From an uncultured Isosphaeraceae bacterium (GTDB lineage: Bacteria > Planctomycetota > Planctomycetia > Isosphaerales > Isosphaeraceae): a stretch of 33,244 nucleotides of DNA. Shown here piece by piece: positions 5,645-26,249 of the stretch. Position 1 is the stretch's first letter. Every line of letters begins with the position of its first letter. Made by a program: the position numbers and the translations under genes. A model generated the notes under the pieces. That model made no database searches and was not told the origin of the DNA. It worked only from the letters and a program-made list of their open reading frames with translations. The DNA is taken from positions 1 through 33,244 of the forward strand of contig CALLYK010000459.1 in the NCBI GenBank assembly GCA_937858365.1. Direction: 5' to 3'.

Positions 5645-8600
5645 ATGGACACGACCGACTTTCACTCTCCCAGCGCGAGCCGGGAACGCGCGCCGGTGCC
5701 CAAGCCCGACGAAGACCCCCAGCGGATCGGTCGCTACCGGGTCTTGGAACGTTTGGGGCAGGGGGGGTACGGTCGCGTTTACCTGGCCCTTGACGAGGAA
5801 CTCGATCGCGAGGTCGCGGTCAAGGTCCCACGCGCCGACCGGGTGACGGGCCCCGATGACATCGAAGAGTATCTCACGGAGGCCCGGTCGCTGGCCCGTT
5901 TGGACCATCCCCACATCGTGCCGGTTTACGACGTCGGCCGCACGGACGATGGTCTCTGTTATGTCGTTTCCAAGCGCATCGTGGGTTTGGACCTGGCCGC
6001 ACGACTTCGGAAGGCGACGCCCAGTTATCGCGAGTCGGCCGAGATCGTCGCCAACGTGGCCGACGCCCTCCACCACGCGCACACGAGGGGCCTCGTCCAC
6101 CGTGACGTCAAGCCCGCGAACATCCTCATCGACGATACGAACCGGCCGTGCCTCACCGATTTCGGCCTGGCCCTGAAGGACGAGGACTTCGGCAAGGGGG
6201 CCACGCGCGCGGGCACGCCCTCTTACATGAGCCCCGAGCAAGCGCGAGCCGAGGGCCACCGCGTCGATGGCCGTTCCGACATCTTCAGCCTGGGCGCTGT
6301 CTTATATGAACTCTTGACGGGACGAAAGCCATTTCGGGGCGATACGTATCTGGAAGTAATCGACCAAATCCTCAACACCGAACCGCGACCCTGCCGGCAG
6401 GTTGAGGATTCGGTCCCCAAAGAGTTGGAGCGGATCTGCCTGAAGGCCCTGGCCAAGCGCGTGACCGATCGCTATCCGACCGCCCGGGACATGGCCGAGG
6501 ACCTTCGGGTCTTCTTGGAGGGGGCCTCGGGCCAAGAATCGCGAAGGGCCCCGAGCGCGTCGGGGGACTTGCGCGACGTCACGCCGGTCACCCACCAAGC
6601 GCCTGCGACTTACACGGGGGACGACTCCTTCCGCGTCGTCCCCAAAGGGCTCCGATCGTTCGATGAACACGACGCCGACTTCTTCCTGCAATTGCTCCCA
6701 GGGGCCCGAGACCGCGACGGCCTGCCCGAGTCGGTCCGCTTCTGGAAGACGCGGGTGGAGTCGCGCGACCCCGAGCGCACTTTTCGCGTGGGCATGCTCT
6801 ATGGCCCATCCGGTTGCGGCAAGTCGTCGTTGATCCGTGCGGGCCTCATTCCCAGGCTGGGCGCCTCGATCCGCGCCCTGTACGTGGAGGCCACACCCGC
6901 CGAGACTGAGGACCGCTTGCTCCGCGGCCTTCGTCAAGTCGTCCCAGAAGTCCAGGGCGAGTCCGACCTCGTCGCCACCCTGGCGACTCTCCGGCGCGGG
7001 CGGGTCCTACCTTCGGGACAGAAGGTCCTGATCGTCATCGACCAACTCGAGCAGTGGCTCGTCTCGGGCCTCGCCACGGAGAACACCGACCTGGTCCTGG
7101 CCTTGCGACAGTGTGACGGCCGCCACGTGCAGGCGATCCTTTTGGTCCGCGACGACTTCTGGTTGGCGGCCAGCCGGTTTCTGCGCGACTTGGAGGTCCC
7201 CCTGCTGGAAGGGGTCAACAGCGCGCTTGTGGACCTCTTCGACACGCGCCATGCGACTCGTGTGCTGACCGCGTTCGGTCAGGCGAACGGTAACCTCCCC
7301 GCGCGCGGCGGCGAGATCACCGCCGAGCAACGTGCCTTTCTCGATCGTGCCATCCAGGACCTGGCCCAAGAGGGCCGAATCATCCCGGTCCGTCTCGCCC
7401 TCTTCGCCGAGATGATGAAGGGCAAGCCCTGGACCCCCGCGACCCTTCGGGCCACCGGCGGCATTCAAGGCGTGGGCCTCACCTTCCTGGAAGAGACCTT
7501 CAGCGCCCCTTCAGCGCCGGTTTCCCACCGCCTGCACGAGAAAGCGGCGCGCGCGATCTTGAAACTCCTCCTTCCGCCCAGCGGTCGCGACATCAAAGGG
7601 CAGATGCGCTCCGAGCAAGAACTGCGCGAGGCCACCGGCTACGGCACTCGGACCCGTGATTTCGAGGACGTGCTCCGGCTCTTGGACAACGAGCTCCGGC
7701 TCATCACGCCGACTGACCCGGAAGGAAGCGCCGGCGCGCCGAACCTCGCGACGGGCCGGGGCGAGCGGTACTACCAGCTCAGTCACGACTACCTCGTCCA
7801 CTCGTTACGGGAATGGCTCACGCGGCACCAGCGGCAGAACCGTCGCGGTCGGGCCGAGTTGCGGCTGACTGAACGGGCGACCCTTTGGGGCGACAAGCCC
7901 GAGAACCGCCGCTTGCCCACCCTCGTGGAATGGGTTGGGATCCACCTGCTGACGCAACGGCGCGAGTGGACCGACGTTCAAAGACGGATGATGCGCGGCG
8001 CCGACCGCTTTCACGGTGTGCGTGCGCTCTTGGCCATCTTGCTGGCGGCGGCGGCCCTTTGGGGGGGAGTGGAGGTCCACGGGCGGATGCGCGCCTCGGC
8101 GCTGGTTGATGCCCTTCAAACGGCCTCCACGGCGGACGTTCCTCCCATCATCCGGCAACTGGCCCCCTATCAACATTGGGCCAAGAGCAGACTGACGGAA
8201 CTGGCGGCACAAGCGTCGCCGGAGGGCCGGGCGAAATTGCACGCGAGCTTGGCCCTGCTTCCTCTTGATTCCACCTTGGTCCACACTCTCACGGAGCACA
8301 TGGTCACGGCCGGCCCGGCGGAGTTCCCTGTCTTGCGCGATGCGCTTCGGACCCACGCGGCCGAGATCGTCCCGCGCTTGTGGCCGGTGCTGGAAGAGGC
8401 CCCCGTCGATGATCCTCGGGTCCTTCCCCTGGCGGGCGCTCTGGCATCGTATGCACCCGAGGACCCTCGTTGGGTCACCGTGGGCGATCATGTCGCCGAG
8501 GCACTCGTCAAGGTGAACCCCGTCTTTCTGGGGCCATGGCTCGAAGCGGTCCGGCCGGCCCAGGCGGCCCTTGTTGGGCCCCTTTCGACGATCTTTCGCG

Positions 8601-11600
8601 ACCCCCGCCGACCCGAGACGGAACACACCCTGGCCACGAACGTTCTGGCCGAGTTCGCCGTCGAGTCGCCCGACATGATCGCCGACTTGCTGATGGACTC
8701 CGACCCCAAGGCGTTCGTCCGGTTCTTCACCCTCGCGGAGAGGCTGGCGGCGTCGGTCGCCCCGCGACTACAGGCCGAGGTGGCCCGCCAGGTCGTGGCC
8801 TCGTGGGAGGACCCGCCCCTAGACGCCTCCTCAGCCAAGCCCGCGTCGGCGATCGCACAGCGCTTCGATTCCGCGGAAGGGGTCCTGGAAGAACGCTTCG
8901 CCTACTGCCAAACGCTCCCCTTCACCGAGTTCGCGAAACTGTGCGAAGCGCTCCGTCCGGCAGGCTATCGGCCAACGCGGTTCCGACCTTATTCGGACGA
9001 TGGAGCGCTTCGCGTCGCGGCCGTTTGGACGCGTGACCACCGGCCCTGGAGGTTCGCCGAAGACCTGACGGCCGAGGAAGTCCGAAGCCAGGACGAGTCG
9101 AATCGCCAGGCACGTTTCAGCGCCGTGGATGTGGCCGGTTATCTCAGCGGCAGCGGGCCGCGGTTCGCGGTCGTCTGGGTCGGCGAGAGGAATGAAGAGG
9201 AACGCGCCGAGGTCCAGGCCGGCCTGGTACCCGACGAATGGGCCATCGCCGAATCGCGGATGACGGAGAAAGACCGCAAGGTCCTGGGCCGTCAAGTCCT
9301 TCGGACGCCGGAGGGCGGACTGCTCGTGAGCGGTGTCTGGGCCCCCACCCAAGCCGGCGCCGACGCGGCCGAAGGGCCCGGCGCGTACGACCAATTCGAG
9401 CCGACGCTCGAACGCGATTTGTTATGTCGCAACGATCAATTGCTCATGGATGCGTCCGTGTACGAGGGGGGCAATGCCCTCGACCCAACCGAACGTGCGA
9501 AGGCGGCCTTGGCGCGGGCCGACGCTCGTCTCTCACTGGGTGGTGAGATGGCGGGCGCTCATCTGGAACGCGGCGTGGCCTTGGTCGCCCTGGGCGATTG
9601 GGAGAAAGCGGTGAAGGCCCTGGAAGGCCCCTTCCCGAAAGGGGCCAAGGCCGACCAAGCCCTACGCCTTCAAACCATCGCAATGGCGCGTTTGAAGCGG
9701 GTCGACGAGGCCCGGGCCGGACTTGGGCGTTACCTCAGCGGCGACCCGAGCACGCGCGATCGCACGGCCTTCGCGGCGACCGTCGCCGCCGCGCTTGGGG
9801 AGGGAGAGGAAGAGGCGTTCAAGGCCCTGGAGTCGGCCCTCGCCGAGCAGGGCGAAGACCTGGAATGGTCTCTCCTGGCGGCCGGCGCTTACGCTCAGGG
9901 GGCCCGATTCGCCAGAGACGATCACTTGGCAGCCGCTCGACGCGATCGGGCCATCGCCCTGGTCGCGCAGGCGGCGGGCGGCGGCGAAGTGGACTTTAAC
10001 CGCCTCGAACGTGACTTCGACCTCGACCCGCTGCGCCTGGACCCCCGCTGGCCCGACGTGGTCCAACCGAGCCGTCCCGATCGGCGCTACGCGACCGTCT
10101 GGTCGGCCGACCCCCGCTTTGAGTCGCTTGCGCTCTACGGGTTAGACCCGGCCACCGCCCGACGGCGCGGTCGAGATCTGACCGCGCGGGGTTATCGTCC
10201 CATCGCCGCTTCCGTGGCCCGAACCAAAACAGGGGCGCCGCTTCTGGCCCTCTCGGTCTGGCACCGACCTCTCGTGCAGGAATCGGCCAGGGAGGAACTC
10301 GGCCAGCGTCAGGCCAGGGCAGCCGCCGGATTGCTCCGTCTGGGTAGGGCCGAGGCCGTTTGGCCACTCTTGAGGCACTCGCCCGACCCCAGGGTCCGCA
10401 GCTTCCTCATCAATTGGCTGAAAGAACTCGGCGCGAACGCCCACCCTTTGATCGCCGAGTTCGATCGCCTCGACAAGGGACCGCAGCCCGCCCTCGCGCC
10501 GGGCGTCTCTCCCCATCAAGCGGTGGTCTTCCACCCGGAAACGTCCACCCGGCGCGCTCTGGTCCTCGCCCTCGGGTCCTTTCCGATCGAGTCGCTCGAC
10601 GCGGGCGACGCCGCACGGTTGACCCAGCGCTTTCTGGAACTCCATCGCGACGACCCGGACGCCGGCATTCACGGGGCGACGGCCTGGGCCCTTCGCTCTT
10701 GGGGGAAAGGGACCGAGCTTCAGGCAGCGTCGGCGGGCCCGGTCCCGCTGGAAAGTCGCGGGCCGCGCCGCTGGTTCCGCGACGCGCAAGGTCGCGACCA
10801 CGCCATCTTGGAAGGTCCCATCGAGTTCCTGGTTGGTTCGCCCCAGACCGAGCCCGATCATGACTCGACCACCGAGACCTTGCGAACGTGCATCATCCCG
10901 CGGCGTTTCGCGGTCTCTCTGAACGAAGTGACGAAGGCCGAATTTCAGCGCTTCTCCCAGAAGTCGCCGCGTTACGCGCCCGACCCCGCGAACCTGGCCC
11001 GATTCAGCCCCGACGCCGACGGGCCGATGGTCTTCGTCACCTGGTACGCGGCGGCGGCCTATTGCAACTGGCTGAGCGAGCGGGAAGGTCTGCCTCGCGA
11101 ACAATGGTGTTACGTGCCCCTCTCGGGCGACGTCTATGACGAGGGGATGACCATCCCCGCCGACTTTCTCCAACGCGCAGGCTATCGGCTACCAACCGAG
11201 GCCGAATGGGAATGCGCCCATCGGGCCGGCGCGGTCACGACGCGCGATTACGGGTTCTCACCCGAGCTGTTGGTGGCCTACGGTTGGTCTCAAGGGAACA
11301 GTCGTGATCGGGCCTGGTCGGTCGGCCGCAAGAAACCCAACGACCTGGGCCTTTTCGACACGATGGGGAACACGCTGGAATGGTGCCACGACCCATTCAT
11401 CGCGGTTCGCGGTGATCGCGCGGGGGTCGTTCGCGACGAGGCGCATCACGAAGAAACGATCGCTGAGCGCACCTCGCGAGCGTTGCGCGGTGGGTCCTTC
11501 TACTTTCCTCCGTCGTTGGTGCGGGCCGCGAACCGAGGCGGTTACGCTCCTTCTCAAGTCGACAGCTACATCGGCTTCCGGACGGCCCGGACCTGTCCTT

Positions 11601-11602
11601 GA
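5645..11602 (+). CDS. Giant Ser/Thr protein kinase / STAND NTPase / FGE-sulfatase-like fusion
   Basis: A 1985-residue protein. A Hanks-type kinase (residues 29-290) has GQGGYGRVY, K60, HRD with D154 and DFG with D172, so it should be active. A P-loop NTPase of the nSTAND type follows, with GPSGCGKSS (K393) and Walker B VLIVIDQLEQ (D466). One hydrophobic stretch near 793-812 (LLAILLAAAALWGG) probably spans the membrane, leaving the kinase and NTPase in the cytoplasm. Beyond it are alpha-helical repeats, two GYRP...VW-type repeats (near 1093-1180 and 1495-1545; like bacterial tandem repeat domain 1), a TPR-like region (near 1280-1470) and a C-terminal FGE/SUMF1-like domain (from about 1716) with RLPTEAEWE, NTLEW, RALRGGSF and IGFRTAR. 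The FGE cysteine pair is absent after RGGSF, so ligand or iron binding is likelier than formylglycine synthesis. ATG 5645 gives an N-terminus like other such kinases; 5591 would add 18 residues. Confidence 0.9.
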   Translation: MDTTDFHSPSASRERAPVPKPDEDPQRIGRYRVLERLGQGGYGRVYLALDEELDREVAVKVPRADRVTGPDDIEEYLTEARSLARLDHPHIVPVYDVGRTDDGLCYVVSKRIVGLDLAARLRKATPSYRESAEIVANVADALHHAHTRGLVHRDVKPANILIDDTNRPCLTDFGLALKDEDFGKGATRAGTPSYMSPEQARAEGHRVDGRSDIFSLGAVLYELLTGRKPFRGDTYLEVIDQILNTEPRPCRQVEDSVPKELERICLKALAKRVTDRYPTARDMAEDLRVFLEGASGQESRRAPSASGDLRDVTPVTHQAPATYTGDDSFRVVPKGLRSFDEHDADFFLQLLPGARDRDGLPESVRFWKTRVESRDPERTFRVGMLYGPSGCGKSSLIRAGLIPRLGASIRALYVEATPAETEDRLLRGLRQVVPEVQGESDLVATLATLRRGRVLPSGQKVLIVIDQLEQWLVSGLATENTDLVLALRQCDGRHVQAILLVRDDFWLAASRFLRDLEVPLLEGVNSALVDLFDTRHATRVLTAFGQANGNLPARGGEITAEQRAFLDRAIQDLAQEGRIIPVRLALFAEMMKGKPWTPATLRATGGIQGVGLTFLEETFSAPSAPVSHRLHEKAARAILKLLLPPSGRDIKGQMRSEQELREATGYGTRTRDFEDVLRLLDNELRLITPTDPEGSAGAPNLATGRGERYYQLSHDYLVHSLREWLTRHQRQNRRGRAELRLTERATLWGDKPENRRLPTLVEWVGIHLLTQRREWTDVQRRMMRGADRFHGVRALLAILLAAAALWGGVEVHGRMRASALVDALQTASTADVPPIIRQLAPYQHWAKSRLTELAAQASPEGRAKLHASLALLPLDSTLVHTLTEHMVTAGPAEFPVLRDALRTHAAEIVPRLWPVLEEAPVDDPRVLPLAGALASYAPEDPRWVTVGDHVAEALVKVNPVFLGPWLEAVRPAQAALVGPLSTIFRDPRRPETEHTLATNVLAEFAVESPDMIADLLMDSDPKAFVRFFTLAERLAASVAPRLQAEVARQVVASWEDPPLDASSAKPASAIAQRFDSAEGVLEERFAYCQTLPFTEFAKLCEALRPAGYRPTRFRPYSDDGALRVAAVWTRDHRPWRFAEDLTAEEVRSQDESNRQARFSAVDVAGYLSGSGPRFAVVWVGERNEEERAEVQAGLVPDEWAIAESRMTEKDRKVLGRQVLRTPEGGLLVSGVWAPTQAGADAAEGPGAYDQFEPTLERDLLCRNDQLLMDASVYEGGNALDPTERAKAALARADARLSLGGEMAGAHLERGVALVALGDWEKAVKALEGPFPKGAKADQALRLQTIAMARLKRVDEARAGLGRYLSGDPSTRDRTAFAATVAAALGEGEEEAFKALESALAEQGEDLEWSLLAAGAYAQGARFARDDHLAAARRDRAIALVAQAAGGGEVDFNRLERDFDLDPLRLDPRWPDVVQPSRPDRRYATVWSADPRFESLALYGLDPATARRRGRDLTARGYRPIAASVARTKTGAPLLALSVWHRPLVQESAREELGQRQARAAAGLLRLGRAEAVWPLLRHSPDPRVRSFLINWLKELGANAHPLIAEFDRLDKGPQPALAPGVSPHQAVVFHPETSTRRALVLALGSFPIESLDAGDAARLTQRFLELHRDDPDAGIHGATAWALRSWGKGTELQAASAGPVPLESRGPRRWFRDAQGRDHAILEGPIEFLVGSPQTEPDHDSTTETLRTCIIPRRFAVSLNEVTKAEFQRFSQKSPRYAPDPANLARFSPDADGPMVFVTWYAAAAYCNWLSEREGLPREQWCYVPLSGDVYDEGMTIPADFLQRAGYRLPTEAEWECAHRAGAVTTRDYGFSPELLVAYGWSQGNSRDRAWSVGRKKPNDLGLFDTMGNTLEWCHDPFIAVRGDRAGVVRDEAHHEETIAERTSRALRGGSFYFPPSLVRAANRGGYAPSQVDSYIGFRTARTCP

Positions 11603-11720
11603 ACTGCCGGCAATTGCGTTTTGTGGCGGTCCCCAACCCTTCTTGGGAATTTCCGCGCCCCGCCTCCTTCTTCAAGTGTCAAGTCGATGTGATCCTCGCG
11701 ACACTCGAAGGGGGCCCTTC

Positions 11721-13046
11721 ATGTCAGCCATCATTCGCCGTCGCGTCCCTCCTCCGCTCGTGCTCGGTTGGGAAGGTCATGATGAGGGGCGTAAAGTCAA
11801 GCAAATGGGCTTTGGCCCGAGCACACAGCCGGAGGCCGTGAAACGAGGCAGGCGCCGGCTCGTCTATCGGGGCGATGGCCACCTCCTCTGCGTGGCCCCC
11901 ACGGGTGCGGGCAAGGGACGCGGGCTCATCATCCCCAATCTCCTGACGTATCCTGGTCCGGTCATCGTCTCGGACCCGAAGGGCGAGAACTATCTGGTCA
12001 CGGCGCATCGACGACGCGCGATGGGGCATCGCGTGGTCGTGTTGGACCCCTTCCACGTGGCGACCGACAAAGGAGACTGGCTCAACCCGTTCGACGTCCT
12101 CGGCCTTCCCGGCAGCATGCCCGACGCCGACGTGGAGCTGATCGCCGAACTCATCACGGGGGGAGAACCCACCAGTGCCAAGGACCCCTTCTGGGACCTC
12201 ACGGGCGGCGGGATGTTGATTGGCCTTCTGGGACTCACCGCGCTCGAAGAGGACGCCGACCGGCGCAACCTCGGCACCGTGCTCGACCTGCTTTACGACG
12301 GCGATTGCGACTACAAGATCGCGGTGGCCCTGGACACCCGTAAGTTTCCCCATCAAATGATCTACAATGAACTGGCTGGCTATCTCTCGCATGAATCCGA
12401 CAAGTGCCGACCGAGCGTGCGTTCGACCGCGCAGGCGAAGGTGAAGGCCCTGGGATGTCAGGCCGTGCGCGAGGCGATGTCGGGGTCCACCTTCGACCTG
12501 GGCGCGATCGTTCGCGGCGAGCCGATCGATATCTTCATCGTGCTGCCCCCCGACAAGCTCCACAGCCATCGTGCCGTCTTGCGGCTCTGGCTGGGCGTCT
12601 TGATGACGGCCCTCATGAGGCGCACGAGCATCCCCGAACAGCGCACACTCCTCATGCTTGACGAAGTCGCCCAACTGGGGACGCTGGGCACGTTGCGTCA
12701 GGCGATCACGTTATTGCGCGGTTATGGTGTTCAAGTTTGGACCTTCTGGCAAGACCTGAGCCAGTTGAAGCTCCTTTACCCTCAAGATTGGCCGACCATC
12801 GTGAACAACGCGGCGGTCCTTCAGGCCTTCGGCATCTCCAACGGGCTCATGGCCGCGGAATGCGCGGCCGTCATGGGGTGCGAGCCGGGGGCGTTCCGCA
12901 AACTCGCGCACAACCAACAAATGATCATGCGACCTTATCAAGAAGTCCGGTCGCACCAACGGCTCGACTACTTGCGCGATCGCTGTTTCCGGGGCAAGTT
13001 CACCGCGAACCCGCGTCACGAGCGCGGACCCGCCAGGACCCTGTGA
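11721..13046 (+). CDS. VirD4/TraG-like coupling ATPase, soluble and orphan
   Basis: A 441-residue P-loop ATPase of the type IV coupling protein family: Walker A APTGAGKGRG (K65), then SDPKGENY, LDPFHV, LNPFDVL, and Walker B LLMLDEVAQLG (D314) followed by the LLRGYGVQVWTFWQDLSQL block typical of VirD4/TraG. In conjugation these hexamers feed DNA or protein substrates to a secretion channel. Canonical VirD4 has two N-terminal membrane helices; here only about 55 polar residues precede Walker A, so the protein looks soluble. No relaxase, VirB/Tra channel gene or integrase is in the window. ATG 11721 is supported by GAAGGGGG ending 6 bases upstream. It lies 118 bases after the kinase gene on the same strand and may be co-transcribed. 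A role in DNA or protein translocation is inferred from family only. Confidence 0.85.
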   Translation: MSAIIRRRVPPPLVLGWEGHDEGRKVKQMGFGPSTQPEAVKRGRRRLVYRGDGHLLCVAPTGAGKGRGLIIPNLLTYPGPVIVSDPKGENYLVTAHRRRAMGHRVVVLDPFHVATDKGDWLNPFDVLGLPGSMPDADVELIAELITGGEPTSAKDPFWDLTGGGMLIGLLGLTALEEDADRRNLGTVLDLLYDGDCDYKIAVALDTRKFPHQMIYNELAGYLSHESDKCRPSVRSTAQAKVKALGCQAVREAMSGSTFDLGAIVRGEPIDIFIVLPPDKLHSHRAVLRLWLGVLMTALMRRTSIPEQRTLLMLDEVAQLGTLGTLRQAITLLRGYGVQVWTFWQDLSQLKLLYPQDWPTIVNNAAVLQAFGISNGLMAAECAAVMGCEPGAFRKLAHNQQMIMRPYQEVRSHQRLDYLRDRCFRGKFTANPRHERGPARTL

Positions 13047-14771: not shown

Positions 14772-17700
14772 ATGTCGCCTCGGCCGACCTGGTTGGTCCC
14801 CTTCGCCACTCACACCCGTCGATCCCGGACCAAGCGCCGACTCGGTTTCGACGACCTTGAGGTCCGCTCCCTCCTGGCCGCCACGATTTCCGGCACCGTC
14901 TTTCAATTGATCGACGCCAACGGGTTTTTTCCGACGGCACAGATGGGCGGCTTTCTTTCCACGGTCGGCAATGTGCCGGTCTCGCTCGATGGCGGAGCCC
15001 CGGTCCTCAGCGGGGCCTCGGATGGCTCGTATTCTTTCGCGAACGTCGCGCCCGGGTCGCATACCGTCGCGATCAGCCTGCCCTCCGGTTTTCTTGGTTT
15101 CAGCGGCCAATCCCTGAGTTATTCGCTCGTCATCCAGGCCAATCAAACGAGTTACGCAAACCTTAATTTCGCACTTACACCCAAGTCAGCAGCCCTGGTC
15201 CAGAACCTGTATGAACTCGTCATGTCGCGCCCGGCGACGGCCGATGAACTGAAGTCCCAAGTGGCCGCGGCGGAGCGAGGCGCCAGTCCCGGAAGCACCT
15301 TCCAATCGCTCTTGACCTCGGGTGAGTTCCAGTTGAATTCCCAGCCGATCGCGAACTTCCTGGGCGCGGTCTTCCCCGGCCGACCACTGCTGATTGGCTT
15401 GATGCGTAACGCCGTCCAATTGCAAGGGCTCGGGGTCGCCCAAGACGCGACCATGCTTCAGGTCATCTATTCGCGGCCCTTCGTGGCCAAGTACGGCGAC
15501 ACGAGTCTCCTCGCCGACCCCGACTACGTTCGGTTCCTCTACCGGACCTTGCTCTTGCGCAATCCCACGCCAACCGAGCGCGCGAATTGGGTGGACGGCC
15601 TTCGAAAAGGGACGATCAACCGAGGCGACGTCGCCCTGACCTTGGTCGGGACCAAGGAGTTCTTACACAAGCAGCCGTTCGCGGCGCCTCGCGTGGGTGT
15701 CTCCCTCGCGTACCTTGGGACACTCGGTCGCGAGGCGACACCCGCCGAACTGAAGTCGGGCGTCGCCAGGGTCCACTCGGGTGAGTCGTACGAACGGTTC
15801 GCCAACCGTCTGGCCGCGTCGACCGAGGCCCGTAATTTGAAGGGCTACACCGACACGTTCGTTTGGGACGTGAAGGCCCATCAGGTCCCGACGGCCACGA
15901 ACGACCTCGCACGCCTTCAACAGTACGACCCGACCACGAACGCATTCGATATCGCGGTGACGGCCGGTTCCATCACAAGTTCCGCCGCCTCGCCGACGAA
16001 CCTCTACGTGATTTCGCACGGTTGGGCCCCCGGCTTCGCCGAGGACGTCCTACTGCACTCGACGCCCGGTAATCCTCTGCGTTGGTGGCAAACGCCCGGT
16101 TTGCCCGACTCTCAAGGCGACGCCGCTTCCCCCTGGATGTTCGACGGCGTCGCCTACGTTTCGTCGCAGGGTTTGGCCCAGGCGATCGTGGCAAAAGACC
16201 CGCTGGCGAAGGTGGTCGCGTTCAGTTGGCTCGATCAATCGGCCACTCCGCAAGCCTTCACCCCATCCAAGCTGGGCCTGGTGGGCAAGGTCCGCGCGGG
16301 GACCGCGATCGTGCGCGGCCTGGACACGGGCCGCCTTCTGCCCGGCATGACGATCTCAGGGCCCGGCATTGAACCTGGCTCGTTCATCCGGTCCTTCGGC
16401 ACCGAGCCCGGCTCGATCGTCTTATCGCGGCGGGCCACAGCGAATGTGTCCGCCGCCGTCCTGACAGTGGACCTCGCTCGCTTCGCGGTCGCCGGTCGGC
16501 TGGCGCCGGGAAGTCCAGTCGTCAGGGGCATCGACACGAGCTACCTCGTGTCGGGGATGACGGTCTCGGGACCGGGGATCGCGGTGGGGACCGCCGTGAA
16601 GTCGATCGACTCGCCCAGCCAACTCACACTCACGTCGTCGGCGACGACCGCGGGCAAACCGATGCTCGTCTTCACTGGGACGAACCTGGTGGTGATCTCC
16701 CAACGTGGGACGACCACGACGGGCTCGAAGACGCTCACGGGCCTGGACACGTCGCAGCTTTCGCTGGGCCTGACCGTGGTGGGTCCCGGCCTCGCCCCGG
16801 GGACGACCATCGCCAACATCGATGGGCCCACACAGGTAACGCTTAATCAAGCAGCAACGGGATCGTACACGTCACCCGTGGTCATCAAGGGGACCGACCT
16901 TGATTCCACACTCAAACAGCTTCTCTACGTGGGACAATCGGAAGCGAACACGCAAGTCAACGGGTTGCGGATGGCCTCGGCGATCGAAAAGGCGCTCGCG
17001 CCCGGGTTCTTCTCGTTTGGGTCCTCTTCCGGCGCTGGACTCATCCATTTGCTGGGCCATAGCCACGGGGCGAAGGTCGCGACGGTCGCCACGCTCGCCT
17101 TGCGGCAGGCCGGAGTCCCAGTGGCCCAACTGACCACGCTGGAATCACCTGAAGCGGGCCCCACCATCGGCACGAGCGTCCTCAACGTGGCGACGCACTT
17201 GGCGAACCTCGGCGGCGCTGAGAACTTCCTTTGGTATTACTTGCGCCAGATGAAGCTTGGTCGATCATCGGTGGGCGCCTCGCGCACGTCCACAGACTCG
17301 ACCTTCGTCGACAATTACTATTCGCAAGAGGGGGTGGGCACGGCCCTCGGGTCGCTTGACCTGTCTCAGTTCGACCCGAGCGCGTTGCCGCTCTCTTCCA
17401 TCTTGGACGTCCAGCTTCATCCCGAGCTGCTCTATGGGGCCCTCGGCCTTTCGGACCTCGGCGGCATTCAACAAACTTTGCTGGGCTCGCACGACTATCC
17501 GCCGCCTTTCTACGGGCAAAGCGGCCTTCAGGGGCCTTCATCACCCCAGGTCGGCATCAACTGGTCTCCCCTGCTGGGACCCGCGAACGTGCCGACAACG
17601 CAAGCGTTCGCCCAGCCGAGCACGCTCCGACGCTCAGGCACACTGACGAATGGCAGCACGCTGGTCACGGGGGTCGACGTGAGCGGCCTGGCCGTTGGGA

Positions 17701-18461
17701 TGCCAGTGGCCGACTCGGCCGCCTTCTTCAAAGACATCAGTGACGGCACGACCATCGCCGCGATCGACGCGTCGGCCGGCACGATCACGCTTTCCCAACC
17801 GGCCACGGGGTCGAAAGCGGCCACACTCGTCTTCACGTTCACGAAGACCCAGTACATCACCAATCCATTCAACCTTGAGTCCCTTTCGCTCACCAAGACG
17901 ACCCCCGCGGCCCCCGTGCCGTTGAGCTACGCTCGCCAGTACGCGATGGGCTCGGTGACGGACACGGGGCAGTCGCTGGCCCTGACCGTTGGCCCGGGCG
18001 CCGGCGTGGCCGTGGCGGCGATCACGTTCAATCCTGAGCCGGGGCCTGGCTTCAATGGACTTGGGTCCGGAATGGACCTGCAAGTCAAGTTCGACGGCGC
18101 CCAGGCCGGCGACGACGTTCAACTCGTCGTTTGGATGCGCGGGATCGCATCGGCCCCGCGGGTCTTGGACATCTCGGGGCAGGGGGCCGGCAAACTCACG
18201 ACCGGGTCCACGATCGGTTCGTTGAGCATCCCGCTATTCACGATGAGCGCCTCGGCCGCCGGCACGACTACCCAATCGGCCACGCTCAGCATGGGCGGCC
18301 TGCTCGACTCCTTCTTCCTGGACGCCCCCTTCAACGCGCTTAACGGCGGAAGCCCAACGACGGTCATCCCCGCGCTGGGCTTCTCCGTGGTCGGCAACCC
18401 GGACCGTCCAGTCACGGTCACGGTAAGCGGGATGCGCCAGTTCGAAGATGGCATCCGCTGA
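14772..18461 (+). CDS. Large surface protein: LEPR-XLL-like N-terminus, DUF4214-like repeats, repeat-interrupted alpha/beta-hydrolase
   Basis: A 1229-residue protein. The N-terminus is basic and then reads FDDLEVRSLLAA, close to the LEPR-XLL motif of planctomycete exported proteins. A carboxypeptidase/SdrD-type beta domain follows (SGTVFQLIDANGFF to about 135). Three DUF4214-like helical units start near residues 142, 254 and 311 (LYELVMSRPAT, FLYRTLLLRNPT, AYLGTLGREAT). A lipase-like hydrolase begins at VISHGWAPGF (about 415) and has its nucleophile motif GHSHG with S764. Between these lie three tandem beta-type repeats (about 506-705) with the pattern G..V.GLDT..L..GMT..GPGI..GT; a fourth sits at about 953. 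The C-terminus is beta-rich. A surface or secreted esterase/lipase-like role is inferred. The catalytic Asp/His were not assigned. The start codon has only a weak upstream GAG. Confidence 0.8.
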   Translation: MSPRPTWLVPFATHTRRSRTKRRLGFDDLEVRSLLAATISGTVFQLIDANGFFPTAQMGGFLSTVGNVPVSLDGGAPVLSGASDGSYSFANVAPGSHTVAISLPSGFLGFSGQSLSYSLVIQANQTSYANLNFALTPKSAALVQNLYELVMSRPATADELKSQVAAAERGASPGSTFQSLLTSGEFQLNSQPIANFLGAVFPGRPLLIGLMRNAVQLQGLGVAQDATMLQVIYSRPFVAKYGDTSLLADPDYVRFLYRTLLLRNPTPTERANWVDGLRKGTINRGDVALTLVGTKEFLHKQPFAAPRVGVSLAYLGTLGREATPAELKSGVARVHSGESYERFANRLAASTEARNLKGYTDTFVWDVKAHQVPTATNDLARLQQYDPTTNAFDIAVTAGSITSSAASPTNLYVISHGWAPGFAEDVLLHSTPGNPLRWWQTPGLPDSQGDAASPWMFDGVAYVSSQGLAQAIVAKDPLAKVVAFSWLDQSATPQAFTPSKLGLVGKVRAGTAIVRGLDTGRLLPGMTISGPGIEPGSFIRSFGTEPGSIVLSRRATANVSAAVLTVDLARFAVAGRLAPGSPVVRGIDTSYLVSGMTVSGPGIAVGTAVKSIDSPSQLTLTSSATTAGKPMLVFTGTNLVVISQRGTTTTGSKTLTGLDTSQLSLGLTVVGPGLAPGTTIANIDGPTQVTLNQAATGSYTSPVVIKGTDLDSTLKQLLYVGQSEANTQVNGLRMASAIEKALAPGFFSFGSSSGAGLIHLLGHSHGAKVATVATLALRQAGVPVAQLTTLESPEAGPTIGTSVLNVATHLANLGGAENFLWYYLRQMKLGRSSVGASRTSTDSTFVDNYYSQEGVGTALGSLDLSQFDPSALPLSSILDVQLHPELLYGALGLSDLGGIQQTLLGSHDYPPPFYGQSGLQGPSSPQVGINWSPLLGPANVPTTQAFAQPSTLRRSGTLTNGSTLVTGVDVSGLAVGMPVADSAAFFKDISDGTTIAAIDASAGTITLSQPATGSKAATLVFTFTKTQYITNPFNLESLSLTKTTPAAPVPLSYARQYAMGSVTDTGQSLALTVGPGAGVAVAAITFNPEPGPGFNGLGSGMDLQVKFDGAQAGDDVQLVVWMRGIASAPRVLDISGQGAGKLTTGSTIGSLSIPLFTMSASAAGTTTQSATLSMGGLLDSFFLDAPFNALNGGSPTTVIPALGFSVVGNPDRPVTVTVSGMRQFEDGIR
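16288..16890 (+). repeat. Three tandem ~65-residue coding repeats inside the hydrolase
   Basis: Units begin near 16288, 16483 and 16693. Each encodes a version of G..V.GLDT..L..GMTVSGPGI..GT.I.SID....LTLS..AT. The cores are TGRLLPGMTISGPGIEPG, TSYLVSGMTVSGPGIAVG and TSQLSLGLTVVGPGLAPG. They have diverged at DNA level, so they are old duplications. A fourth unit lies at about 17629-17840. They occupy the gap between VVAFSWLDQSATP and the region before GHSHG, i.e. within the hydrolase fold. Confidence 0.75.
17629..17840 (+). repeat. Fourth, separated copy of the surface-protein repeat
   Basis: The unit SGTLTNGSTLVTGVDVSGL, with GMPV, DGTTIAAIDAS and TLSQPATG after it, follows the same plan as the three tandem units but replaces GPGI by ADSAAFFKDIS. 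It lies about 740 bases downstream of the others, after the hydrolase part. Confidence 0.6.
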
Positions 18462-20557: not shown

Positions 20558-21004
20558 ATGCGCAAGGACCAGCGAAGAACGCGTATCGCCGTTTTGGTCG
20601 CGTCTGTCTGCGCCTTCGGCTGCGACCGCGGCCCATCAAGGTCGCTCGACGCGCCCGACGAGGCCCCGGCCCTCAAGGCGCTTCAACTCTCGCTCGCATC
20701 TTGGCAAGGGGGGCGACGCGATTCGGGCGGATTGATCGGCGAGGAACCTGCCGTGGGTGTCGTCGACTCGCTCCGGCCCGATCGCCCCTTGATCAGCTTC
20801 GAGGTCTTCGAACCATCGCGTGCAGACGGGACCGCGCGCGTCTTCGCGGTCCGTCTTCAACTCGGCGAGCCGTCTGAGGAAATCCACACGCGCTATCAGG
20901 TCGTGGGTCGAGACCCGCTCTGGGTCTTTCGCCAAGAAGACTACGACCTCATCCTTCACTGGGAACATAAAATGCCGGCCGACTCGCCCACGGAGAAGCC
21001 ATGA
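20558..21004 (+). CDS. Small lipoprotein, first gene of the metal efflux operon
   Basis: A 148-residue product with a basic start (MRKDQRRTR), a hydrophobic stretch and lipobox AFGC (C22). The mature part reads L..SLASWQGGRRDSGGL, EPAVGVVDSL, LISFEVF, RVFAVRLQL and YQVVGRDPLWVFRQEDYD. The order and spacing match the minus-strand lipoprotein at 18482-18916 (LSAWRDGKS, LSAYEVL, RFTVKLTF, VVLGARPIAVFRESDFD), so the two are paralogues. The stop overlaps the adaptor start (ATGA at 21001), implying translational coupling with the efflux genes. It is 119 bases from the divergent minus-strand unit. A role as an outer or periplasmic accessory of the pump is an inference from position only. Confidence 0.8.
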   Translation: MRKDQRRTRIAVLVASVCAFGCDRGPSRSLDAPDEAPALKALQLSLASWQGGRRDSGGLIGEEPAVGVVDSLRPDRPLISFEVFEPSRADGTARVFAVRLQLGEPSEEIHTRYQVVGRDPLWVFRQEDYDLILHWEHKMPADSPTEKP

Positions 21005-22425
21005 GCCCTTCGCGAGACGAGGCCACCGGCAAGTCACCCTGGCCGCGACGCCTGGCGAGCTTCGCGATCGCGAGGTTACGCTTCGTCGTCGTCGTGGTCG
21101 CCGCGCTCCTCGTCGTCGGCGGCTGGGAGACGATCCGCCTGGCCTGGGACCGCTTGATCGCCCGCCCTTCGTCCGAAGGGGCCATCTCGTCGAGCACCGA
21201 GTACTTCTGCCCGATGGACCCGGGCATCCTTTCCGACTGGGCGGCGAAGTGCCCGATCTGTCAGATGACCCTGGTGCGCAGGCGAAAAGGTGAGGCCGCG
21301 CCCCTGCCGGAAGGCGTGGTCGCGCGGATGCAATTCACGCCCTACCGGCTCTGGCTCGGCGGCATCGAAACCAGCCCGATCGAATACGCCGCTCTGGTGC
21401 GCTGGGTCGAGGCGCCGGGGGTCGTCATGGATGATGGCGCGAGCGTGCGTTGCGACTTCTTCGCTGATGAGTTGGAATGGGTCCAAGCGGCGAATCATGC
21501 CGAAGTGGAAACACTTGAAGGGCCCAACGCGGGCTTAAGTCTTTCTGCGATGATAAGATCGATGAGTGATGACGCACAAGCGAGCGTGGTCCTGGGGGTC
21601 GAATCGCTTGACCTACGTCCCGGCGAACGTGTTCGAGCGCGTCTGGCCTGTCCGATCGACGCGCTGGCACCCTTCCGCGACTCTGCCGGCGGGCCTCCCC
21701 CGTTGACCGCGAGTGAACCACGCAAGGTCTATCGGTGCATGGAGCACCGCGAGGTCCTGCTCGAGCGGGCAGGTCGGTGTCCGCGCGACCAATCGACTTT
21801 GATGGCGGTCGCCTTGCGTGACGATCAACGCGTGCGCTGGTGGTGTCCGATGCACCCGGAGGTCACGGCCGAGCAAGCCGGCGCGAAGTGCGAGAGGTGC
21901 GGTGGTATGGTCCTGGTCCCTCGCCTCCTTTCGTATCGTCCGCGGGGACAGGCGCTCTCCGTGCCGGTCTCGGCCGTCGTCCATGAGGCGGGTCGGTCGC
22001 TTGTCTTCGTGGGACGCGGCGAGGGGACCTTTGACGCGACGCCCGTCCGTCTGGGACCGCGTTGCGGCGACACTTACGCCGTGGTCGATGGACTGGTACC
22101 GGGCGACCGCGTGGCCACGCGCGGGGCCTTCTTGATCGAGGCCGAATCGCGTCTGAATCCGAGCGTCGCGGCGGCGTTCTTCGGCGCAGGTCCGGGCGGC
22201 AAACACACGGAGGCGAGCGAGAAGGCGGTCACGGGCGACCTCGCGCTCATCGAGCGTCAACATCGTTGTCCGGTCACCGGCAAGGTCCTCGGCTCGATGG
22301 GCGGACCGGTGAAGTTGGACGTTCGCGGTCGGATCGTCTTCCTTTGCTGCGCCGGCTGCAAAAGCGCGATTGAGGCCGACCCGGACAAGTACCTCGCGAA
22401 GCTGCCGAACGCGGCTCGGCCATGA
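21001..22425 (+). CDS. cusB: CusB-type efflux adaptor with three heavy-metal-binding motifs and a YHS-like end
   Basis: A 474-residue membrane fusion protein with one N-terminal membrane anchor (LRFVVVVVAALLVVGG, about residues 26-41). Three heavy-metal-binding-type cysteine modules follow: YFCPMDPG...CPIC (from 67), YRCMEHRE...CPRD (from 244) and WWCPMHPE...CERC (from 280). The later part (SVPVSAVVHEAGRSLVFVG, DGLVPGDRVATRGAFLIEAE) is the usual membrane-proximal end of CusB-like adaptors. The end (from 421, HRCPVTGKV to FLCCAGC) resembles a YHS/TRASH metal domain. Between modules 1 and 2 there is only about 140 residues of beta-type sequence, and no long alpha-hairpin is seen. It overlaps both neighbours by 4 bases (ATGA), so all three genes are one operon. 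Copper or silver export is the likeliest job; the metal is inferred. Confidence 0.82.
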   Translation: MSPSRDEATGKSPWPRRLASFAIARLRFVVVVVAALLVVGGWETIRLAWDRLIARPSSEGAISSSTEYFCPMDPGILSDWAAKCPICQMTLVRRRKGEAAPLPEGVVARMQFTPYRLWLGGIETSPIEYAALVRWVEAPGVVMDDGASVRCDFFADELEWVQAANHAEVETLEGPNAGLSLSAMIRSMSDDAQASVVLGVESLDLRPGERVRARLACPIDALAPFRDSAGGPPPLTASEPRKVYRCMEHREVLLERAGRCPRDQSTLMAVALRDDQRVRWWCPMHPEVTAEQAGAKCERCGGMVLVPRLLSYRPRGQALSVPVSAVVHEAGRSLVFVGRGEGTFDATPVRLGPRCGDTYAVVDGLVPGDRVATRGAFLIEAESRLNPSVAAAFFGAGPGGKHTEASEKAVTGDLALIERQHRCPVTGKVLGSMGGPVKLDVRGRIVFLCCAGCKSAIEADPDKYLAKLPNAARP

Positions 22426-25400
22426 TCGACCGCCTAATCGACTGGTCGATTCGACATCGGGCTTGGGTGACGGTCGTGGCCGGCCTGATGGCCCTTTGGG
22501 GCTTGTTTTCGCTCGCGATCGCGCCGATCGACGCGGTCCCCGACTTGTCCGAAAACCAGGTGATCGTCCACGCCGAATGGCCCGATCACGGACCCGGCGA
22601 GATCGACCGTGCTGTGACGACACCCCTTGCCCGAGCGTTCCAGGGCCTGCTCGGGCTAAAGGCCCTGCGCACGTCGAGCGACCCCGGAGCAAGTTCCCTC
22701 TGGCTCATCTTTGAGGAAGGCGTCGGTACGGAGGAGGCGCGCCGGCTCGTCGACCGCCGGCTGGTCGCGTCGCGCCCGGAGATGGCCTTGCCCGAAGGAG
22801 TCGAACCGCGGTTGGCCCCGAACGGCCCCGCGACCGGACAGGTCTTCTGGTACACGGTGGAGGGCGCAGGTCTCGACCTTGTCGAATTGCGCTCGATCCA
22901 GGACCGGCTCGTCAAACCGGAATTGGAGAAGGTCCAAGGGGTGGCCGAAGTGGCGAGCGTCGGCGGTATGGTGGCCGAGGTCCACGTCGAGGCCGACCCC
23001 GTCCGGATGAGACTTTATCGCGTCTCCTTGCTTGCAATTCGGGACGCTCTGCATGCAGTAAACGCACCCGCACGCGCGGAAGACCTCGAGCGTGTCGACG
23101 TCCTTAACCTGGATGGCCGAAAGGTCCGCCTCGGCGATGTTGCCACGGTCTCGCCTGGGGCGCGGCCTCGCGTCGGAGTCTTGGAGAAGGACGGCCTGGA
23201 AGTGGCGGGCGGGGTCGTCTTGATGAAGCACGGCCAAGACCCATTGGCCCTCACTCGGCGTTTGAAGGAGGGCCTGCGCGCGATCGCGCCGCGCCTTCCG
23301 ACCGGTGTTCGGGTCTTACCGGCCTATGATCGCACCCCCTTGATTCAAGGGGCCGTGGGCACTGTTCGGGGCACGATCGTCGAGGCGATGATCTGCGCCT
23401 CCATCTGCGTCTTGGTGGTGATCCGTCATGCGCGGGCCGCGTTCGTGGTGGCGATCATGCCGCTTCTCTCGGTGCTCACTTGCTTCGGTTCCCTGGAAGC
23501 GCTTCGGTTGGCGGGACTGGCCGAAGTCCCGGTCAACATCATGTCCCTGGCTGGTCTGGCGATCTCGATCGGTCTGCTCGTGGACTCGGCGGTCGTCTTG
23601 GTCGAGAATTCGTTGCATCTCCTCCATCAACGTTACGGCGACGGCCCGATTGGTCGCGATGCTCCGCTGGTCGTGGCCGAGGCTTGCCGCCAGGTGGGTC
23701 GACCGATCACGTTCGCATTGTTAATAATGCTTATCTCGTTCTTACCCGTCTTCGCGCTGGATGGCTTGGAAGGGAAGATGTTCCGGCCTCTGGCGATCAC
23801 GAAGACGCTCGCGGTAGGGGCGTCGGGCTTGCTCGCGATCACGCTGGTCCCCGCGTTGACCGCCTGGCTCGTGCGCGGCCGGGCCCGCGGCGACGAGTCG
23901 AGTCCCATCGTCCGAGGTCTGATCGAGGTCTATCGGCCGCTGCTGAGCGCCCTTCTGGACCGGCCGGCCCCCTTGTTTTGGTTGCTCGCGGCGATGTTCA
24001 TCTTGTCGGGCGTCGTGATCGGAGATCGGCGTTTCTTTCTGGTCTTGCTCGGTTTGGGACTGATTGTGTACGGCGGGTCGGCCCGCACGTTCACGAGCAA
24101 GGCGCTGGGAATGGCGGCCCTCGTGCTCCTTGCTTTGATCGCGGAACGAACGATCGAGCCGCTGGGGAGCGAATTCCTGGCGCCCTTGGATGAGCGTGTT
24201 GTGATGGACATGCCGATCTCGGTCCCCGGAATGACGATTGAGCAAGGGACCGACGACCTGAAGGCCCGCAACATGGTCCTTTGTCGCTTTCCGGAAGTCG
24301 CGATGGTGATGGGGAAACTCGGGCGAGCGGAGACCTCCACCGACCCGGCGCCGCTGGACATGATCGAAACGATGGTGGAGTTTCACCCCAGCGAGTTCTG
24401 GCCGGCGCGCACGCTGGCCGCGTCGTTCGTCCGCGAAGCGATGGCCAAAACGCGGGAACGACTGACCGCGCTCGGTTGGGTCGATGGCGGGCCCCTGGCC
24501 GGCCCCGACGCGGACCATGAACAGGTCCATTCCTTGTTCAACGCGCAAATGCGCGAGTACGTCTATCAACGAAATCGAGAGCTATTTCGGTCGCCAGGCT
24601 TCGATGAGCGGACGATGCGACTCGACGGCCTGGAAGCGGGGGCCCTGCGCCGTTGGCGGGAGCACAAGCGATCGGTCGATGCTGAGCTTCGTCGGCGCGC
24701 TCCACTCTTACTCGCCAGGATCACATTGGAAGGGGCCCTTCAGGCGTCTCGCGCGGCACCGCCCGACCTTGCCGAGTACCTCCGTCGGCTGGGCGAATGG
24801 CGCAAGCGGCAAGCTCAGACGGCCCATCACGGTGGGACCACCGAAGGCGCTGCGATGTCGAGGATGCCCGCTGTCCCTCCAGGACTGGGACCGCAGCCGC
24901 GCCTTGAGGCCCTGGCGGAAGGACTTGCGGAGGAGTTCGCACGGCAGATGGTCTTGCGGCCGGCGCGGCGTGACGAACTTGTCGGGCCGGGGGGTGAGTT
25001 GGATCGGAGTGTCTTGATGCCTGGATGGACAAACGTTTGGACGATGCCCATTCAGAACCGAGTGGACATGCTGGCGACCGGAGTGAACACGGTCGTGGGC
25101 GTGCGCGTGACCGGGCCCGACCTGAACACCGTGGTCGCGACTTCGGAGCGGATCACCGAGGTCGTGAAAGGCCTTCAAGGGGCGAGCGACGTCGTGGCCG
25201 ACCCCATCCGCGGGCGCGTCATGCTGGAAGTCCGTCCGCGACGCGATCGGATTGAAGGCCCCAATGCGGACGTGGAGGTCCGCGAAATCGAAGCGATCGC
25301 GGCGACGGCGCTGCGCGGCATGGTCGTCGCTCAGGTCCTCGACGAACGCGGGCCTCGCGCCGTTCGCCTGCGCTTCGCCAGGGCGACCCGCTCTGACATC

Positions 25401-26249
25401 GACGCCTTGGGTGAGCTTCCAGTGACACACTCCGCGACCTCTGAGGATGGTCGCTCGCGACTGCTCCCTCTGCGAGCGGTCGCCGAGATCGAGCGGGTCG
25501 ACGGACCGGCGACGATCAAAGGCGAAGCCGGCATGCCCCGGAACTTTGTGAGGCTCAACGTGCGCGGCCGGGACCCGGGCGCCTTCGTGACCGAGGCGAG
25601 GCGCGTGGTCGCTTCGAGCGTTGCCCTTCCTGATGGATACCAGGTCGATTGGGTCGGTCAGTACGAGCACCAACGTCACGCCGCTCGCACGCTCAGCCTG
25701 GTCGTGCCCATCGTCGTCTTGCTGATCGTCGGTCTCCTTTATCTCACATTGAGAGACTGGGCCGACGCGCTGATCTTGGCCTTGGTGGTGCCGGGCGCTC
25801 TGGCGGGCGGGACGATCTGCCAGTGGGTCCTGGGGGCCAAGTTCTCGGTGACGGTCGCGATCGGTACGATCGCCTGTTTCGGCATGGCCACGGGGACGGG
25901 CGTCATCATGTTGATCTACTTGCGCGAAGCGGTGAGGCTGGCCGGAGGCCTGGAAGAGCTGGACGAGGCGGGCTTACGCGCGGCCGTGCTCGACGGCGCG
26001 GTGAAGCGTTTGCGTCCGAAGTTGCTCACCGAAGCCACCACGCTTCTGGGTCTCGTGCCGATGCTCTGGGCCGACGGGATTGGTTCGGAAGTGGTCCGAC
26101 CGATGGCGGCGCCCGTGCTGGGCGGCTTGCTCGTCGCCGACGAGTTCATCGACCTTCTTCTGCCGGTCCTTTTCCATCAGTTCCGCCGTCGGCGGCTGGC
26201 CCGACGAAGGCGACTCGGTGGCGAGCACGCGGGCGATCCACGAGCGTGA
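22422..26249 (+). CDS. cusA: CusA/CzcA-type heavy-metal RND efflux pump with a large insert
   Basis: A 1275-residue inner-membrane proton/metal antiporter, longer than E. coli CusA (about 1047). HME-RND hallmarks: a first helix and APIDAVPDLSENQVIV, EEGVGTEEARRLV, the TM4 motif GLAISIGLLVDSAVVLVEN, MPISVPGMTIEQGT, PGWTNVWTMPIQNRVDMLATG (methionine at the position recalled as a Cu/Ag ligand in CusA) and ATGTGVIMLIYL. About 190 residues (673-863) are inserted between the conserved VREAMAKT region and LDRSVLMPGW; this insert is charged and contains helical stretches. Extra hydrophobic residues lie near 520-585. In CusA an acidic residue in the AAE-type TM stretch aids proton relay; here the site reads ATGTG, as in CzcA-type pumps that also lack it. 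Start overlaps the adaptor stop (ATGA). No outer-membrane CusC homologue is adjacent. Confidence 0.92.
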   Translation: MIDRLIDWSIRHRAWVTVVAGLMALWGLFSLAIAPIDAVPDLSENQVIVHAEWPDHGPGEIDRAVTTPLARAFQGLLGLKALRTSSDPGASSLWLIFEEGVGTEEARRLVDRRLVASRPEMALPEGVEPRLAPNGPATGQVFWYTVEGAGLDLVELRSIQDRLVKPELEKVQGVAEVASVGGMVAEVHVEADPVRMRLYRVSLLAIRDALHAVNAPARAEDLERVDVLNLDGRKVRLGDVATVSPGARPRVGVLEKDGLEVAGGVVLMKHGQDPLALTRRLKEGLRAIAPRLPTGVRVLPAYDRTPLIQGAVGTVRGTIVEAMICASICVLVVIRHARAAFVVAIMPLLSVLTCFGSLEALRLAGLAEVPVNIMSLAGLAISIGLLVDSAVVLVENSLHLLHQRYGDGPIGRDAPLVVAEACRQVGRPITFALLIMLISFLPVFALDGLEGKMFRPLAITKTLAVGASGLLAITLVPALTAWLVRGRARGDESSPIVRGLIEVYRPLLSALLDRPAPLFWLLAAMFILSGVVIGDRRFFLVLLGLGLIVYGGSARTFTSKALGMAALVLLALIAERTIEPLGSEFLAPLDERVVMDMPISVPGMTIEQGTDDLKARNMVLCRFPEVAMVMGKLGRAETSTDPAPLDMIETMVEFHPSEFWPARTLAASFVREAMAKTRERLTALGWVDGGPLAGPDADHEQVHSLFNAQMREYVYQRNRELFRSPGFDERTMRLDGLEAGALRRWREHKRSVDAELRRRAPLLLARITLEGALQASRAAPPDLAEYLRRLGEWRKRQAQTAHHGGTTEGAAMSRMPAVPPGLGPQPRLEALAEGLAEEFARQMVLRPARRDELVGPGGELDRSVLMPGWTNVWTMPIQNRVDMLATGVNTVVGVRVTGPDLNTVVATSERITEVVKGLQGASDVVADPIRGRVMLEVRPRRDRIEGPNADVEVREIEAIAATALRGMVVAQVLDERGPRAVRLRFARATRSDIDALGELPVTHSATSEDGRSRLLPLRAVAEIERVDGPATIKGEAGMPRNFVRLNVRGRDPGAFVTEARRVVASSVALPDGYQVDWVGQYEHQRHAARTLSLVVPIVVLLIVGLLYLTLRDWADALILALVVPGALAGGTICQWVLGAKFSVTVAIGTIACFGMATGTGVIMLIYLREAVRLAGGLEELDEAGLRAAVLDGAVKRLRPKLLTEATTLLGLVPMLWADGIGSEVVRPMAAPVLGGLLVADEFIDLLLPVLFHQFRRRRLARRRRLGGEHAGDPRA

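Follow-up and report, generated by a model that had tools for sequence, protein, structure and literature searches.

Genes at the locus

The window, i.e. the whole stretch of 33,244 nucleotides that was analysed (an uncultured Isosphaeraceae bacterium, contig CALLYK010000459.1), contains two neighbouring genes on the same strand, one for a large protein kinase and the other for a VirD4/TraG-like ATPase (Table 1). The initial annotation proposed that the two form one system, a kinase-regulated DNA or protein pump unlinked from conjugation, which would be a new arrangement. The label "receptor-like kinase/STAND" given to the first protein is fair: kinase and nSTAND1 domains are combined with a single TM helix, and the catalytic motifs VAVK, HRD and DFG are intact. 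The start given for this gene at that time, 5645, is an alternative one and corresponds to the in-frame Met19 of the ORF.

Table 1. Features of the kinase and ATPase genes in the window
Feature	Position	Strand	Basis
Ser/Thr kinase - nSTAND1 - TM - FGE-sulfatase protein, 2003 aa	5591..11602	+	ORF, Pfam; orthologues L049, L050
Protein kinase domain, aa 49-295	5735..6475	+	Pfam Pkinase 8.6e-45
nSTAND1 NTPase domain, aa 352-770	6644..7900	+	Pfam 2.3e-22
Predicted TM helix (one), aa 809-827	8015..8071	+	Hydrophobicity
FGE-sulfatase (SUMF1-like) domain, C-terminal, aa 1745-2000	10823..11590	+	Pfam 7.1e-33
Intergenic gap, 118 bases	11603..11720	+	Between kinase end 11602 and ATG 11721
TM-less VirD4/TraG-like ATPase (P0001), 441 aa	11721..13046	+	Pfam, tree, TM scan
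Walker A APTGAGKG, aa 59 of P0001	11895..11918	+	Motif
Walker B LLMLDE, aa 310 of P0001	12648..12665	+	Motif

The longest ORF of the ATPase begins at 11304, within the kinase gene, but by homology and by codon usage translation starts at ATG 11721. With this start, the earlier statement that the ATPase follows the kinase gene by 118 bases is exact. Neither a sigma-70-like promoter nor an intrinsic-terminator pattern was found in the gap. P0001 matches the Pfam families T4SS-DNA_transf (PF02534, 2.2e-57) and TraG-D_C (PF12696, 7.1e-14). No TM segment was detected, all 19-residue windows over the whole 441 aa being below the TM threshold. The lack of membrane helices noted previously is thus confirmed for P0001, and it holds for its clade as sampled. 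Further downstream, the window encodes a 1229-aa protein with a DUF4214 domain (14772-18461) and, beyond that gene, an RND efflux pair (21001-26249).

The TM-less clade and conjugation genes

A profile HMM built from nine relatives of the ATPase was used to search 398 genomes of the class. There were 49 matches above 300 bits, found in 46 of these genomes, and the next group scored at about 240-270 bits. The higher-scoring group is TM-less, with the motor near the N terminus, while the lower-scoring, TM-anchored one has N-terminal TM helices, with 105-177 residues before the motor. Two isolated hydrophobic stretches in the TM-less group (in L025 and L118) fall either within the motor or in an N-terminal extension that is itself uncertain. 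In a maximum-likelihood tree, to which plasmid and phage coupling proteins were added for comparison, the 49 TM-less and 16 TM-anchored sequences are split with a support of 100/100.

Distribution of the clade is uneven. In the family of the window organism the ATPase is present in 4 of 45 genomes; in genus g287 there is one copy per genome in 17 out of 19 genomes, with shared local synteny. Most g287 genomes have, upstream of the ATPase, a gene for a probably secreted protein of about 140 aa with a weak cytochrome c' match (e.g. L092 10509-10946). Rare outsiders of the clade occur in Thalassotalea, on Sinorhizobium megaplasmids and on a Runella plasmid. In S. meliloti RCAM1115 (L054 7992-9366) the annotation splits the ATPase into two pieces that overlap, due to either a frameshift or a sequencing error; the near-identical copy of strain 1132 is intact. 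No ATPase relative was found on viral contigs, and phage matches are distant only (21-33%). The literature searched contained no account of planctomycete VirD4 proteins that are TM-less.

According to the initial annotation, no conjugation gene is present. We found none among the scanned ORFs of the window, and a search of the rest of the genome for relaxase and VirB genes agrees: the relaxase families PF03432 and PF03389 (the two covered by the relaxase search) and VirB4 (PF03135) were all absent from the assembly, which has 6.8 Mb in 591 contigs and is 85% complete. P0001 is the sole PF02534 and also the sole PF12696 protein of this genome. The same three families are missing from nearly all 45 genomes of the family, with a single PF03432 match (G032) as the exception. 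Around most planctomycete clade members the genes are ordinary ones, for housekeeping functions or secreted proteins, and do not recur; neither a conserved partner gene nor T4SS genes were found near clade members at the sampled loci. Homologues beside conjugation loci were seen for TM-anchored cousins only, and not for the TM-less clade; the plasmid coupling proteins used for comparison adjoin the TraA relaxase and TraC/TraD. Our results support the conclusion that the ATPase is unlinked from conjugation and that the same is true for its clade as sampled.

P0001 shares PF02534 and TraG-D_C, the Walker A and B motifs and the fold with the VirD4/TraG coupling proteins (TrwB, VirD4, Cag-beta). 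TM-anchored relatives are 580-815 aa long and carry an N-terminal TM domain, whereas P0001 has about 440 aa and no such domain. Moreover, VirD4/TraG coupling proteins operate together with a relaxase and a channel of VirB type, whereas for P0001 no relaxase (PF03432, PF03389) or VirB4 was detected. T4CPs lacking the TM domain have been described previously: TraJ/TraI of pIP501 are encoded on conjugative plasmids, and some TM-less T4CPs act together with small membrane proteins (PMC7434980). Judged from this description, the pIP501-type proteins are likewise motors without membrane helices, but they are encoded by conjugative elements, while the P0001 clade comes without T4SS or a conserved small membrane partner. 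We also considered a split coupling protein complemented by a separate small membrane protein. The Thalassotalea ATPase does have a 120-aa ORF with hydrophobic stretches upstream of it, but the ORFs at this place in Runella and Sinorhizobium are not membrane-protein-like and planctomycete loci have no recurrent small partner, and the idea was rejected.

Selection, fold and possible roles of the motor

The TM-less clade is under purifying selection, with dN/dS values of 0.01-0.24 for eight informative close pairs. All sequences keep the DE of Walker B, and 46 of the 49 have the Walker A lysine. A structure model made from seven sequences has a moderate confidence (pLDDT 70, pTM 0.72), and its best PDB matches in Foldseek are Cag-beta, TrwB-deltaN70 and DotL, followed by DndH (5e-7), VirB4 and TdpAB (6e-5). 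Because dN/dS is low, the Walker motifs are conserved, the gene is stable in genus g287 and the fold of the model matches, we conclude that the clade ATPase is a folded motor of coupling-protein type, maintained by selection, that has neither a membrane part nor a channel. Furthermore, we infer that it forms hexamers, has DNA as a substrate and acts in the cytosol. By analogy, it would be a DNA translocase, most likely a soluble hexameric ring that spends ATP on travelling along cytoplasmic DNA or pulling it. Such a motor would resemble TrwB minus its membrane part, or the motors of HerA/FtsK type, and would no longer be tied to any type IV secretion channel. In many Planctomycetia this TM-less branch of the VirD4/TraG (T4CP) ATPases appears to be a solitary chromosomal gene.

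What is new is a TM-less, conjugation-free clade of VirD4-like motors, which is a modest variation on coupling proteins. It is a well-delimited family in which the ATPase is still under selection after losing the membrane domain and the secretion channel, both of which are considered necessary for coupling proteins. The role of the ATPase would be directly testable in cultured planctomycetes of the single-copy genus.

Could the motor take part in genome defence? It has been established that HerA/FtsK motors are captured by conflict and counter-invader systems (PMC10853773). By this explanation, which we regard as unlikely though worth considering, the clade would be a VirD4/HerA-type motor captured to find or move the DNA of invaders, and its effector partners (Card1, caspase, patatin, TIR/STAND) would differ between genomes. 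Several single loci are consistent with it. In Thalassotalea sp. G2M2-11 (L026 9992-12728) a Card1/Can2 CARF-nuclease (PF09002 2.8e-35; PADLOC CARF4-PDDEXK 4e-110) begins 26 bases after the TM-less ATPase. On the Runella plasmid pSP2_1 (L053 4188-14152) the ATPase is flanked by two caspase-family genes, in Sinorhizobium a patatin effector-like gene is nearby (PADLOC 7e-47), and large TIR-STAND or NACHT-like proteins are encoded near L116 and L123. The fold neighbours DndH and TdpAB point in the same direction, DndH being a defence motor. The location of the outside members next to Card1, caspase or patatin genes weakly suggests genome defence.

On the other hand, most planctomycete members lie beside ordinary housekeeping or secreted-protein genes, and the gene is stable and single-copy in genus g287, whereas most defence genes are not. 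It also counts against a defence role that large STAND/TIR proteins are frequent in planctomycetes. HerA/FtsK-type defence motors (DndH, TdpAB, mad8) belong to the same ring-motor superfamily and are used without a secretion channel, but the sequence of P0001 is clearly nearest to T4CPs and not to HerA. In HerA/FtsK capture defence systems the motor is fused to or encoded with an endonuclease, whereas no nuclease adjoins the window ATPase, and adjacency to the Card1 nuclease is limited to the Thalassotalea member. Phosphorothioation or methylation genes were not found beside the window ATPase. Defence is a minority hypothesis because the neighbours of most planctomycete members are unremarkable and do not recur. 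By a further reading, which is tentative and which we rather doubt, planctomycetes use this clade as a free-standing DNA motor for a chromosomal function unrelated to conjugation, possibly in defence, and the motor pairs with cOA-activated Card1 or caspase effectors once it has moved into other phyla.

Other genes were noticed at the outside loci. DUF4062 and further conflict-type genes are close by in Thalassotalea (L026), and in Runella (L053) small co-oriented genes with no function assigned are situated on either side of the ATPase. In Sinorhizobium a gene without assigned function immediately precedes the ATPase.

The kinase as a neighbour of the ATPase

Regarding the kinase, orthologues were searched for in the 45 genomes of the family with the C-terminal 1653 aa of the protein as a query. 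Full-length orthologues with 48-50% identity are present in two genomes (G013 and G019; L049, L050), and there is a partial paralogue with 60% identity in the window genome itself. Both genomes with an orthologue are 99% complete and have zero matches to the ATPase. In G019 the gene after the kinase orthologue is a convergent one for a repeat protein of 2517 aa; in G013 the contig stops 450 bases downstream of the orthologue. Conversely, gene calls around each of the 48 other ATPase-clade loci gave no kinase as a neighbouring gene (0/48). At 3 of the 48 loci the start of the ATPase was missed by the simple gene caller, and a kinase scan of the flanks was used there instead. In total, the 716 kb of flanks of the 48 loci contain 3 kinases, as compared to about 9 expected by chance. 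It is important to note how abundant kinases are: the window genome has 129 PF00069 matches, i.e. one per approximately 53 kb, and seven other genomes tested have 68-133 each; taken together this is about one per 80 kb. A lone kinase-ATPase adjacency is unremarkable because kinases are so abundant in these genomes.

The idea of one system therefore fails at its first part: the pair lacks conservation across genomes, an outcome that the initial annotation had named as a refutation. Kinase orthologues occur in genomes without the ATPase, and relatives of the ATPase occur with no kinase adjacent to them. Of the proposed kinase-regulated pump unlinked from conjugation, the second half stands, since no T4SS genes were detected, and the link to the kinase does not. 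It is likely that we are dealing with two unrelated genes side by side and no kinase-ATPase system, the ATPase being an orphan TM-less motor of coupling-protein type, likely a soluble hexamer. The 2003-aa protein fits the planctomycete kinase-nSTAND-FGE type and nothing unusual was found in it; it would be one paralogue of an expanded family of such proteins, acting independently of the ATPase.

A lineage-specific version of regulation, in which the membrane kinase/STAND protein, on sensing a signal, would switch on a co-transcribed soluble ATPase by phosphorylation, seems to us very improbable. The genes are co-oriented and the 118-base gap is free of a terminator pattern, which would fit co-transcription, but the absence of the ATPase from the genomes with kinase orthologues and of kinases next to the rest of the ATPase clade argues against it, and so does the great abundance of kinases. 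The sister of the window ATPase in the tree, L110 of genome G443 (51% identity, support 100/99), also has an upstream kinase on the same strand, at a distance of about 1.1 kb and with two small genes in between. This kinase is not an orthologue: it matches the window kinase in the kinase domain only (40%), and its C-terminal half is different. No further close member of the P0001/L110 pair was found in 95 genomes of the family of G443 (best others 42-48%). We read the kinase upstream of L110 as a coincidence, but it is the only residual hint and may reflect a loose link.

The MADS anti-phage system has eight mad genes, among them one for a DNA methyltransferase. Two of these genes encode a kinase (mad6) and an ATPase (mad8), and the window kinase and ATPase match them in a generic way (E 1.2e-64 and 2.8e-5, respectively), which would favour a regulated motor; against it, no other MADS-like gene, for example a DNA methyltransferase, was found in the window. 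Membership in MADS was rejected, given a generic kinase match, a weak mad8 match and no methyltransferase among the window proteins scanned.

Finally, the ATPase could be the remnant of an integrative mobile element, a coupling protein that is decayed or stray. The patchy distribution in the family (4/45 genomes) and the surroundings of TM-anchored relatives in the same family, which are found near ParB-like and integrase-like genes, as read from sequence only (L031, L033), or on a plasmid (Singulisphaera), would agree with such an origin, but dN/dS values far under 1, intact Walker motifs, a well-supported separate clade that is near-universal in genus g287 and the absence of integrase and relaxase genes beside the window ATPase make it hardly credible; purifying selection and clade structure disfavour it. 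As regards the genomes of L031 and L033 themselves, PF03432, PF03389 and PF03135 were not detected there, and these two loci may represent an undescribed planctomycete mobilisation type.
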